Assembly (NCBI RefSeq): GCF_002954445.1
Contig: NZ_MQWA01000001.1
Span: 3,203,470 to 3,259,621 of the forward strand
DNA from: Rubritalea profundi
GTDB lineage: Bacteria; Verrucomicrobiota; Verrucomicrobiia; Verrucomicrobiales; Akkermansiaceae
Direction of reading: 5' to 3'
Length of the DNA stretch: 56,152 nt
Position numbers and translations under genes: made by a program. This document shows positions 34,881 through 38,793 of the stretch, in pieces; positions within the stretch are counted from its first letter, which is position 1; every line of letters begins with the position of its first letter. The notes beneath the pieces were generated by a model. It ran no database searches, was not told where the DNA came from, and saw only the letters and a list, made by a program, of their open reading frames with translations.

Positions 34881-34908
34881 CTTTGGCTCGGGCTGATTTT
34901 GATAGCTC

Positions 34909-35061
34909 TCATACATGGTCATGGATTATGAAGTAGCTCTCAGCTTTAAGCTGTACCGCTCCGTTGGGCGGCGATGCCGCTTTTATGATGTTGAGAACGG
35001 TAGTTTGAGTGATACCCGACAACTTGCCAGCGATGGTATATCATCTATATTTGAGGTTCAT
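34909..35061 (-). pseudogene. possible helix-turn-helix scrap of a transposase
   Basis: A reverse frame starting MNLKYR then stop continues as YTIAGKLSGITQTTVLNIIK and AASPPNGAVQ. The middle resembles an HTH of transposase type ('G.S..TV...IK', as in IS1-like N-termini). With an internal stop and no catalytic part it would be debris. The rest of 34881-35366 shows nothing else. Weak evidence. Confidence 0.2.
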
Positions 35062-35366
35062 GTGTACTCGAAAAAACTGGATTGATGAGAATAAACTAGG
35101 GATTTCTATAAAACTTTGGATGGTTAGACATTCAGGTTGTATGGATTAGGTGAAAATACTAGGTACTAAGAAACAGCGTTAGAGGGACTGGAGATGCGTT
35201 TCTAGGAGAGTTAATGTCGGCCTAATCATTGAGATATAATACTGCATAGATCAACTATGTAAGGATACTTAATAAGTTAGATGTTGGGTTATTTAATTCT
35301 AGTTAACTTACTCTATTGCAGTGTTTTATTGATTTTTTGAGTGTGACTGTGTTACTTTGTGAAGCT

Positions 35367-35849
35367 ATGAAGATGAAATGGTTATTGATTGTTGTTACGT
35401 CCATTTTAGTTCCCGTGACCTCGGCTATTGCTGATAGCCATGAGACTCCAGCTGCTACGGACGAAGTAAAGGATGCGTCTAAGGCAGATAAGCAAATGGA
35501 TAAGCCAAAGTTTGGCGAGATTTCGATCAAGGATGTCCAGAATGCAATAGCTAAGAAAGAGCTGACTGTGATCGATGCGAATGGCATTGGTAAGTACAAT
35601 AATGGGCACCTTCCTAGGTCACTGCATTTCGCGTCGATGAAACCTGAAGCCCTAGCTAAGGTCTTGCCCGAAGATAAAGCGGCACTGATTGTGACCTACT
35701 GCGCTGGACCTACCTGAAACGCTTGGAAGAAGGCTGCGGTCGCAGTCAAAAAACTTGGTTACACAAATATTAAGGCCATGAGAGCCGGAATTTCTGGATG
35801 GACTGAGGCTGGAGCCGATGTCGAGAAATCTGATGAAAAATTAGAGTAA
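35367..35849 (+). CDS. exported rhodanese-like protein with in-frame TGA (candidate selenoprotein)
   Basis: 160 residues if TGA at 35715-35717 is decoded. Signal peptide MKMKWLLIVVTSILVPVTSA (cleavage near AIAD). Rhodanese elements: LTVIDANGIGKYNNGHLPRS, active-site loop YCAGPT-(TGA)-NAWKKAAV, and LGYTNIKAMRAGISGWTEAG after it. The frame, family match and codon use continue unbroken beyond the TGA, in a place where relatives often have Cys (CX4C). Residue 117 would be selenocysteine, with the sulfur Cys at 112. A TGC-to-TGA mutation is the alternative. A SECIS-like hairpin follows at 35732-35747. Confidence 0.65.
35732..35747 (+). promoter_or_regulatory. bacterial SECIS-like hairpin
   Basis: GGCTGC (35732-35737) pairs with GCAGTC (35742-35747) through six pairs with one G-U, enclosing the loop GGTC. 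There are 20 nt between the end of TGA and the loop, inside the usual 16-37 nt window, and the loop starts with G as required for bacterial SECIS elements. Confidence 0.5.
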
Positions 35850-35931
35850 TAGAAACTTTCGTCTGGACGTTCATCATAGAGGACGAACCAGACCGCGGCT
35901 AAGCTAGTACCGTGCTTGGGCTAGTGAGCTT

Positions 35932-36066
35932 GTGAAATATGCGTTCAGGGTTTGGGAGAATACTGGGCGCATTGTTTGTAGTACTGTCACAGGTTTACTC
36001 GTCATTGGTTTACTGGGGCTATCTGAAATCAAAAGGTCGCTATACGAGCAGCTAGAAGAGCCCTAG
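35932..36066 (+). CDS. possible small membrane protein, 44 aa
   Basis: A GTG-started frame gives VKYAFRVWENTGRIVCST, then VTGLLVIGLLGL (one short membrane helix), then a charged end, SEIKRSLYEQLEEP. The helix, the basic-to-acidic flanks and the position 82 bp after the rhodanese suggest a real small protein, but no ATG or strong Shine-Dalgarno is present. It ends 65 bp before fabD. Confidence 0.3.
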   Translation: MKYAFRVWENTGRIVCSTVTGLLVIGLLGLSEIKRSLYEQLEEP

Positions 36067-36131
36067 AGAGAATCGTTTAGCTCTTCATATTGAGGGTTGC
36101 TTAGTCGATAGTCGGAGGTTAGAGAAAGGTT

Positions 36132-37061
36132 ATGGCTAATAAGGTAGTAGTACTATTTTCCGGACAGGGAGCTCAGAAAGTGGGCATGGGTAAAGATCTA
36201 GTTGAGACATTTCCTAGAGCAAAAGCACTTTTCGACAAGGCCGACGCCGCACTCGGTCGCTCATTGAGCTCTGTTATGTTTGAGGGCCCCGATGAGGAAC
36301 TCACACGCACAGGCAATTGCCAACCAGCGCTTTACCTACACGGATTGGCTTGTCTCGAGGTGCTCAAAGAGAAGCTGCCTGAGCTAGAGATCGTGACTGC
36401 TGCAGGACTTTCACTTGGTGAATTCACCGCTCATTCTGCTGCTGGGACATTTTCGTTTGAAGACGGTCTTAAGCTCGTGGAGCAACGTGGAGCCTTCATG
36501 GAAGAAGCCTGTAATAGCACTGAGGGTGCAATGGCAGCCATGATCGGTGGTGACGCGGAGGCTGTAAAGACTCTTGCTGCAGACTGCGACGTGGATGTGG
36601 CTAACTTCAATGCGATCGGGCAGATCGTCGTTTCTGGTTCAATCGAGGGAGTTGATAAGGCTGTCGCTGGAGCTAAAGAGTGCGGTATCCGTATAGCTAA
36701 GAAGCTTAAAGTAGCTGGAGCTTACCATTCTCGTCTCATGCAAAGTGCTCAGGACCAGCTTGCGCCAGTTCTTGTCGCTGCAGATATCTCAATGCCATCA
36801 GTTCCTGTGTATTCTAACTATAATGCAACAGCTGTTGCTGACTCGGCGGAGATCCGTGAGACTCTCGAGAAGCAGGTGACTAGCTCGGTCCGCTGGACTG
36901 AGAGTATGCAGGCCGTGATCGCTGAGGGGAACACTACTTTCATCGAGCTAGGGCCAGGTAAGGTGCTCGCGGGTCTCATGGGACGTATCGATAAGACCGT
37001 GAAAGTCTACTCAATCGATGACGTGGCCTCGCTTGAAGCAGCCATTACTGAGCTTGGCTAA
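36132..37061 (+). CDS. fabD: malonyl-CoA-[ACP] transacylase
   Basis: 309 residues. FabD moves malonyl from CoA to acyl carrier protein for fatty acid synthesis. Motifs: FSGQGAQKVGMGKDLVETFP, QPALYLHGLA, the nucleophile AGLSLGEFTAH (Ser94), catalytic His in VAGAYHSRLM and NFNAIGQIVVSG. The usual GHSLG has Leu93 instead of His. Not linked to other fab genes here. Confidence 0.92.
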   Translation: MANKVVVLFSGQGAQKVGMGKDLVETFPRAKALFDKADAALGRSLSSVMFEGPDEELTRTGNCQPALYLHGLACLEVLKEKLPELEIVTAAGLSLGEFTAHSAAGTFSFEDGLKLVEQRGAFMEEACNSTEGAMAAMIGGDAEAVKTLAADCDVDVANFNAIGQIVVSGSIEGVDKAVAGAKECGIRIAKKLKVAGAYHSRLMQSAQDQLAPVLVAADISMPSVPVYSNYNATAVADSAEIRETLEKQVTSSVRWTESMQAVIAEGNTTFIELGPGKVLAGLMGRIDKTVKVYSIDDVASLEAAITELG

Positions 37062-37195
37062 GCAATTACAAGAGACTTAAATTTCAAAAGAAAAAGCATT
37101 TACGATCATTTGTGAGGTGTGTGCCATCTATTTAGTGAAAGATAGTGGACTTACCTAGAGTTCTAGATCTACTGTTTATGCAGTTGAATACACCT

Positions 37196-38793
37196 ATGAA
37201 AGCACACGTACTAACAATCTTAGCCAGCGCGAGCATGAGCCTAATGGTCTCGGCTGAGCAAAAGCGGCCTAATATCCTATTTCTCTTTTCTGATGATCAC
37301 GCTCTGAAATCTATTTCAGCCTATGGTGGGCCACTGAAAGATATAGCACCGACTCCTTACATCGATAGCATTGCTGAAGAGGGGGCGATCTTTGAGAATT
37401 CGTTTTGCGGCAACTCGATTTGTGGGCCATCGCGCGCCAGTATCCTGACAGGAAAGCACAGTCATAAAAATGGCTTCATGCGCAATACTGGTAAAGGGTT
37501 TGACCAAAGCCAATGGACGGTAGCGAAGGCTCTGAAAGGTGCAGGTTACACAACGGCGGTGATAGGTAAGTGGCATCTCCACACTAATCCAGTTGCTTTC
37601 GATTATTGGGAAGTTTTACCAGGGCAAGGGAGCTACTATAATCCTGATTTTATTCAAATGGATGGCTCCAAGAAAAAATTTCAGGGCTATGTGACTGACA
37701 TAACGACTGACAAGGCGATCAAATGGCTCGACGGTCGAGATAAAGATAAGCCATTTTTTTGATGTGTCAGCACAAGGCACCGCATCGCACTTTTTCACCA
37801 GCTCTGCGTCACCTCAATGCATTTGAAGGGGTGGATATCCCTGAGCCAGACAGCTTATTTGATGACTACAAAAACCGCAGTGTGACTATGCCTCTCAATG
37901 AGATGGAAATCGGTCGCCATATGCACTGGTCATACGATCTCAAGCTACGTGGAGATGAGGCCGAAGCTGCAGGAGTGAAACTCCCTGGGCCCAATAGATA
38001 TGGTGCTAAAGTCTACAACCGTATGAGCCTGTCACAGAAGAAGACTTGGGATGGCTACTTCGGACCAAGGAATAAAAAATTCTTGGAGGACTACAAAGCT
38101 GGCAAGTTGAAGCCTGAGGATGTGGTGAAGTGGAAATACCAACGCTACATTAGCAACTATTTAGCGACAGTTAAAGCTGTCGATGAGAACGTTGGCCGGA
38201 TGTTGCATTATCTTAAGGAAAATGGGCTCGATCAGAATACCATCGTGATCTATTCTTCAGACCAAGGGTTCTTTCTCGGCGAGCATGGCTGGTTTGATAA
38301 GCGCTGGATGTTTGAGGAGTCCTTTAAAATGCCATTCTTGATCAAGTGGCCAGGAGTCATCAAACCTGGGTCTAGGCCAAAGCAACTCATACAGAATATC
38401 GACTACGCACCTACTTGGTTAGAGATGGCTGGAGTGAAGGTGCCTGACGAGGTGCAAGGGCGCTCTATCGTTCCATTGCTGAAAGGTAGCAAAGTGGATG
38501 ATTGGAGAGAGGCAGTATACTACGCATACTACGAGATTGGTGAGCACGCTGTGCCTCAGCACTACGGAGTACGCACGGAAACGCACAAGCTGTTCTACCT
38601 TCCTGCGACTCAGGAGTGGCAGATGTTTGACTTAGTCAAAGACCCTGAGGAAATGGTGAACGTCTATGATAATCCTGAGTATTCGAAAGTTAGAGAGTCG
38701 CTTACTAAGGAATACTACCGGCTACGTGAGCACTACGATGCTCCGAGCTATGAGGAATATGCACCGAAGAAAGGTGAAGAGTTCCAGAAGTAA
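37196..38793 (+). pseudogene. secreted formylglycine-type sulfatase, frameshifted once
   Basis: From the ATG at 37196 a signal peptide ([20 protein letters not shown]) leads to [20 protein letters not shown] (metal Asp) and [12 protein letters not shown], the CxPSR motif matured to formylglycine. The frame stops after DKPFF in a T7 run (37754-37760); one more T gives [13 protein letters not shown] and continues through SSDQGFFLGEHGWFDKRWMF to the end. About 532 residues in all. Substrate is probably a sulfated marine glycan. The gene is likely intact if the missing T is a sequencing indel. Confidence 0.8.

Follow-up and report, generated by a model that had tools for sequence, protein, structure and literature searches.

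The Interrupted Rhodanese Frame

Within the window, the whole stretch of 56,152 nucleotides from Rubritalea profundi that was analysed, a rhodanese-like gene carries one TGA in frame, and the question raised by this locus is whether that codon ends the protein or is decoded as selenocysteine (Sec). The gene is best read as that of an exported, single-domain rhodanese selenoprotein, with a probability of roughly 0.9, a figure that covers the selenoprotein part of the reading. The selenoprotein reading is strongly supported by the Sec genes of the genome, the recurrence of the TGA, an invariant hairpin core, the identical codons within that hairpin and the grouping of the Sec forms. The features of the locus are the following:

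35367–35849, + strand: putative Sec-containing rhodanese gene (160 residues and a TAA; codon 117 is a TGA, taken to specify selenocysteine; PF00581 match)
35367–35432, + strand: likely signal peptide, MKMKWLLIVVTSILVPVTSAIA (judged by eye from a basic start, a hydrophobic core and an A-x-A end)
35526–35807, + strand: rhodanese domain (PF00581 profile, AlphaFold2 model and nearest solved folds)
35700–35702, + strand: codon TGC for Cys112, at the position of the rhodanese catalytic Cys (invariant in 11/11 sequences of alignment A1)
35715–35717, + strand: in-frame TGA, predicted Sec117 (five residues past Cys112; motif YCAGPTU; same TGA in four other species)
35732–35747, + strand: candidate SECIS hairpin of the bacterial type (GGUC loop on a stem of 6 pairs; all five intact Sec forms share the 13 nt at 35733–35745 unchanged)

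The sequence-only reading had held that the rhodanese frame is interrupted by a single TGA at 35715–35717 and then continues to a normal TAA, and this was confirmed on the sequence. The list of open reading frames under the standard code ends the gene at the TGA, and the read-through frame matches PF00581 over residues 54–147, a span that includes the TGA, with 48.2 bits against a cut-off of 22.2 (E 1.6e-12). The local sequence around the codon is YCAGPT-U-NAWKKAAVAV. The rhodanese is probably exported from the cytoplasm, and since the signal-like N-terminus recognised by eye is also found in relatives (hydrophobic N-termini occur likewise among the 11 sequences of alignment A1), the protein should act outside the inner membrane. 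Further along the window, at 37145–38793, a run of seven T (37754–37760) divides a gene identified by eye as sulfatase-like; an indel in the assembly or a slippage site may be the cause.

Distribution of the TGA and Cysteine Forms

A family search covering 260 genomes found homologs in 11 of them at E at most 1e-10. The same codon is TGA in five of the 11, belonging to three genera (the window's genome, G173, G174, G185 and G187), and Cys in the other six (G143, G107, G077, G126, G190 and G226). Over the stretches compared, the G187 sequence is identical to that of Persicirhabdus sediminis KCTC 22039 (L046), and the G185 sequence to that of an Akkermansiaceae metagenome-assembled genome (L041). 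The claim that the TGA lies five residues after the catalytic Cys, where relatives have Cys, was borne out when homologues were read at this position, with TGA in four other species and, among 86 distinct sequences, Cys in 80 and TGA in six (one of them decayed), a ratio biased towards Cys because most of these sequences came from two search patterns, one of which demanded Cys. The downstream frame is conserved in all five TGA species.

The genome contig collection gave no match when scanned with a single protein; with an alignment as query, the best 80 of 321 loci were read and the motif was found in 79 of them (not in L119). Filtering of loci L041–L149 yielded 103 Cys and five TGA matches, the latter being L041, L046 and repeats of G173, G174 and G187, and these counts too lean towards Cys, as one of the two patterns required it. 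No further Sec form was found in 386 genomes of the order (117 matched) or in 387 genomes of the phylum (25 matched), where matches lacking a locus were judged by their internal-stop count alone; two TGA-flagged matches, in G407 and G747, had Cys at the position when read. The search of plasmids by tblastn returned eight records, all below 60% identity.

On a 100-row tree with few columns, some long branches and a midpoint root, the five Sec forms make up one group within the Cys forms (97/67, and found in 96% of bootstrap trees). A single Cys-to-Sec replacement inside a Cys family of Verrucomicrobia is the probable, and simplest, origin of the Sec form. A decayed second copy of the gene lies in the same genome as the window (G000:C1:3513628-3514035, L040); it has kept the TGA, Tyr stands in place of Cys112, the hairpin is broken, and TAA and TAG appear further on.

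The Hairpin Downstream of the TGA

Bacterial SECIS elements lie 16–37 nt from the TGA that they serve. The hairpin of the window copy consists of GGCTGC (35732–35737), the loop GGTC (35738–35741) and GCAGTC (35742–35747), with six pairs, including one G-U. The six pairs and the GGTC loop described earlier were found as stated; the distance of 20 nt given there for the hairpin runs from the TGA to the loop G, and the stem itself begins 14 nt past the TGA. In the available text of PMC1088965 a small loop with a guanosine is given as a mark of the bacterial element, and the window copy has such a loop in a hairpin closely downstream.

The weight that one hairpin can carry was estimated from the 2371 TGAs of the window, on both strands and in any frame. 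A comparable hairpin (six or more pairs of which no more than one is G-U, a 4-nt loop with G as its first base, 16–37 nt from the TGA) follows 19 of them, and a GGTC loop occurs in one of these 19, namely that of the rhodanese TGA; 90 of the 2371 qualify if loops of 3–8 nt are allowed. The folding energy of the window hairpin is ordinary (z −0.04), with values of −1.41 to −2.84 for the four other Sec forms and −0.11 to 0.11 for three Cys controls, in a comparison where the L030 and L031 stretches are offset by a few nt. Given this ordinary energy and these chance counts, a single hairpin proves nothing by itself, and it is the comparison between species that carries the case. No Rfam match was obtained in 34900–36200, and PADLOC found nothing.

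The 13-nt core of the hairpin, GCTGCGGTCGCAG, is identical in 5/5 intact Sec forms and present in none of the 80 distinct Cys forms; it is also lacking from the sixth TGA copy, which is the decayed paralog. Within 45 codons on either side of the TGA, compared ungapped among the five Sec forms, the codon varies at 17 of the 17 invariant degenerate residues outside the hairpin and at none of the four inside it (4/4 identical versus 0/17; Fisher 1.7e-4). The loop codon GTC places Val in all five Sec forms at a position where the four commonest residues of the Cys forms are Lys, Asn, Thr and Ala (67/80), and the Trp three residues past the TGA is shared by 5/5 Sec forms versus 3/80 Cys forms.

These comparisons bear on the simplest competing explanation, that the TGA really terminates translation or stems from a sequencing error, the gene being a pseudogene or the source of a truncated protein. 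Other frame problems in the assembly (the sulfatase-like gene at its seven T, and selB, described below) and the presence of a decayed paralog in the same genome would be in keeping with it. Against it, the same codon is TGA in five species, the downstream frame is kept and the 13-nt core is invariant, and genuine decay, as seen in the paralog with its change of Cys112 to Tyr, broken hairpin and TAA/TAG codons, looks different. A sequencing error is very improbable when five species have the TGA along with a matching conserved hairpin, and on these grounds a pseudogene or error was rejected, with hardly any probability left to it.

Genes for Selenocysteine Decoding in the Genome

The genome that holds the window (4.17 Mb in four contigs, 95.8% complete) was searched for selA, selB, the tRNA-Sec gene (selC) and selD, a check that had been proposed from the sequence, and all four are present, selB being frameshifted in the assembly. 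The selA gene scores 496 bits and selD 376.5 bits, the latter with an in-frame TGA of its own in the motif MAACGGU; the tRNA-Sec scores 49.6 bits against a gathering score of 47, and its anticodon was given as TCA by ARAGORN. The selD gene also has a hairpin, which in a 54-nt fold places a GGTCT loop 32 nt past the selD TGA and which does not appear in a 48-nt fold. A GGUC loop common to selD and the rhodanese would fit the reading of both by one SelB. With a tRNA-Sec, a hairpin and a TGA in selD at hand, a changed genetic code is needless as an explanation.

The selB gene, above its cut-off with 267.7 bits, is split into two overlapping open reading frames by a one-base frameshift (G000:C1:1020794-1022700; L009:1495-3401). 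Set beside the DNA of three relatives, that of the window's genome is one base short, and six of the seven relatives fetched read ...QQxTLxGGxxLD unbroken at the point where, in the window's genome, the frame changes after ...QQGTL; the seventh, L162, has an open frame of 643 residues in which the pattern QQxTLxGGxxLD was unmatched. The frameshift is either an assembly indel or a very recent loss, and Sec decoding is accordingly less certain in this strain than in the lineage. Since the sulfatase-like gene is also split at a homopolymer, an assembly error in selB is plausible, if unproven. The other possibility is that the lineage uses Sec and that this strain has just lost the ability through selB, so that the window copy is heading for loss. 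One base missing from an otherwise intact selB, with both halves open, and one paralog already dead speak for such a loss. Yet selA, selD and tRNA-Sec look intact, the split sulfatase-like gene fits assembly indels, and a one-base slip without other decay looks like an error or a change of very recent date, so that a recent loss of decoding is considered unlikely, though it keeps some weight.

For the lineage, the selenoprotein reading agrees with the distribution of the Sec genes. Both selA and selB were found in 5/5 Sec-form genomes, and a tRNA-Sec over the cut-off in four of the five, the exception being G185 (81% complete). In Cys-form genomes, selA is present in 2/6 of the family and in 8/36 of the order (36 of 107 available). 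The rhodanese gene is missing from all 11 genomes of the same genus, though selA is present in 10 of them, and the gene is thus dispensable.

The same counts bear on another proposal, that the rhodanese serves as a selenium carrier, binding perselenide and supplying selenium to the cell instead of acting in sulfur redox chemistry. Going by a title in the reference list of PMC5877670, a selenium-substituted rhodanese has reportedly been suggested as a selenium delivery protein, which speaks for this role. However, the protein appears to be exported and selenophosphate synthesis is cytoplasmic; in addition, selA is missing from 28/36 Cys-form genomes of the order and from 4/6 of the family, and with most Cys-form genomes devoid of selA, the basic job of the family needs no Sec. 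A carrier function is judged quite improbable.

Relation to Described Rhodanese Selenoproteins

Rhodanese-like selenoproteins are listed in five forms (UxxS, UxxG, CxU, UxxG and UxxxxU) in the available part of a 2026 review (PMC13188914), in which a different Sec position is counted as a separate subfamily and the term CxxxxU is absent. With its CxxxxU motif outside the five forms listed there, the window protein would represent a new subfamily rather than a new kind of selenoprotein; the available text does not give the place of Sec in form 1 (WP_010941598.1) or in the metagenomic survey proteins, and some of these could share the position found here. The earlier suggestion that the protein may be new accordingly holds for the CxxxxU arrangement, which stands outside the five listed forms, and fails for rhodanese-like selenoproteins as such, which are already published (PMC13188914, as far as its available text goes). 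The accompanying statement that rhodanese-related selenoproteins had been proposed from marine metagenomes agrees with the accessible portions of PMC1088965 and PMC2398784, where Sec sulfurtransferases assigned to COG2897, COG0607, cd01449 and one distant family are listed. No literature joining Verrucomicrobia, selenoprotein, selenocysteine and rhodanese was found, nor any description of a CxxxxU rhodanese form in the literature searched, which largely comprised sources other than subscription journals and was available in part.

The best NCBIfam match of the window protein was TsoB (NF045694), a rhodanese/DsbD fusion selenoprotein with the motif UxxxxU according to the available text of PMC13188914 (E 4.1e-12; residues 7–158 on profile positions 4–162 of 572). 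Judged from that motif as given there, TsoB probably has a Sec at the same loop-end position as the window protein. The two differ in that the window protein scores 45 bits where the cut-off is 805 and corresponds to the rhodanese part only, with no DsbD part, and in the first motif position, which is Sec in TsoB and Cys in the window protein. None of the 387 phylum genomes had TsoB over its cut-off, and the matches listed lay mainly on the DsbD part. The form 3 protein NF041203 (rhodanese_LYCAU, CxU) likewise has a single rhodanese domain in which the Cys is kept with Sec near it (PMC13188914, available part); its Sec is, however, two residues after the Cys instead of five, and its profile, with a cut-off of 115, gives the window protein 29.3 bits. 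Forms 1, 2 and 4 (UxxS, UxxG and UxxG) and the Sargasso Sea and GOS sulfurtransferases also have Sec in proteins of PF00581, COG0607, COG2897 or cd01449, going by what is available of PMC13188914, PMC1088965 and PMC2398784, and one such family also appears in the available text of PMC5029168. The UxxG of forms 2 and 4, as listed there, would fit a Sec at the catalytic Cys, unlike the loop-end Sec of the window protein. The fold is shared by BH2092 (PDB 3nhv, 3o3w), with a C-x4-C loop, CWGPAC, and by the Cys-type verrucomicrobial relatives, with the C-x4-C loop CGGPxC; both have Cys for Sec, and the 13-nt core occurs in 0/80 of the Cys forms read.

Fold and Possible Mechanism

The rhodanese fold is predicted with confidence in the AlphaFold2 model (mean pLDDT 83.3; block means of 94–98 over residues 51–150), and the nearest solved fold in Foldseek was 3nhv (BH2092; E 2.7e-8), with GlpE and YgaP also listed. 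Judging by the alignment to rhodaneses, Cys112 and residue 117 sit at opposite ends of a single active-site loop. It is proposed that SelB and tRNA-Sec would decode UGA codon 117 as Sec under the direction of the hairpin with the GGUC loop, and that Sec117 would replace the loop-closing cysteine of the relatives, converting C-x4-C into C-x4-U. In the periplasm, Cys112 may take up a sulfane sulfur or become oxidised, after which Sec117 would attack Cys112 to give a Cys-Sec selenenylsulfide, and a membrane thiol-electron carrier such as DsbD would re-reduce the Cys/Sec pair.

The protein is thus proposed to be probably a redox-active sulfur-handling enzyme rather than a simple thiosulfate:cyanide rhodanese. 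Taken separately, the redox mechanism, which rests on fold and homology, is held tentatively, at somewhat less than even odds. The one hint that suggests coupling to DsbD is the best NCBIfam match, the fusion selenoprotein TsoB. The DsbD of the window's genome has an ordinary CLTC motif and is encoded far from the rhodanese. The DsbD of the Persicirhabdus-like genome (L185; G187:C39:116500-119800) has an in-frame TGA in TADW-U-LICK and looks like a UxxC selenoprotein, the DsbD of the window's genome having Cys at that place. No shared neighbours or obvious operon were seen by eye in the loci examined, and because the neighbours differ among the five Sec-form loci, no substrate can be read from the context. 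The fullest form of the proposal, a C-x4-U subfamily with Sec at the resolving position, acting as a periplasmic persulfide/sulfane reductase fed by DsbD-type carriers and having a single origin, with the hairpin dictating the residues AAVA, is offered as a possibility that is more doubtful still.

Implications

Gene callers that apply the standard bacterial code stop at the TGA, and the family is therefore likely to be overlooked or labelled as a fragment. The selenoprotein reading also implies that a SECIS element dictates part of the sequence of the protein in whose gene it lies. The prediction is open to a direct test, since one of the holders corresponds to a culture-collection strain, Persicirhabdus sediminis KCTC 22039, and the five Sec species with their many close Cys relatives constitute a natural experiment on the replacement of Cys by Sec at the end of the loop.
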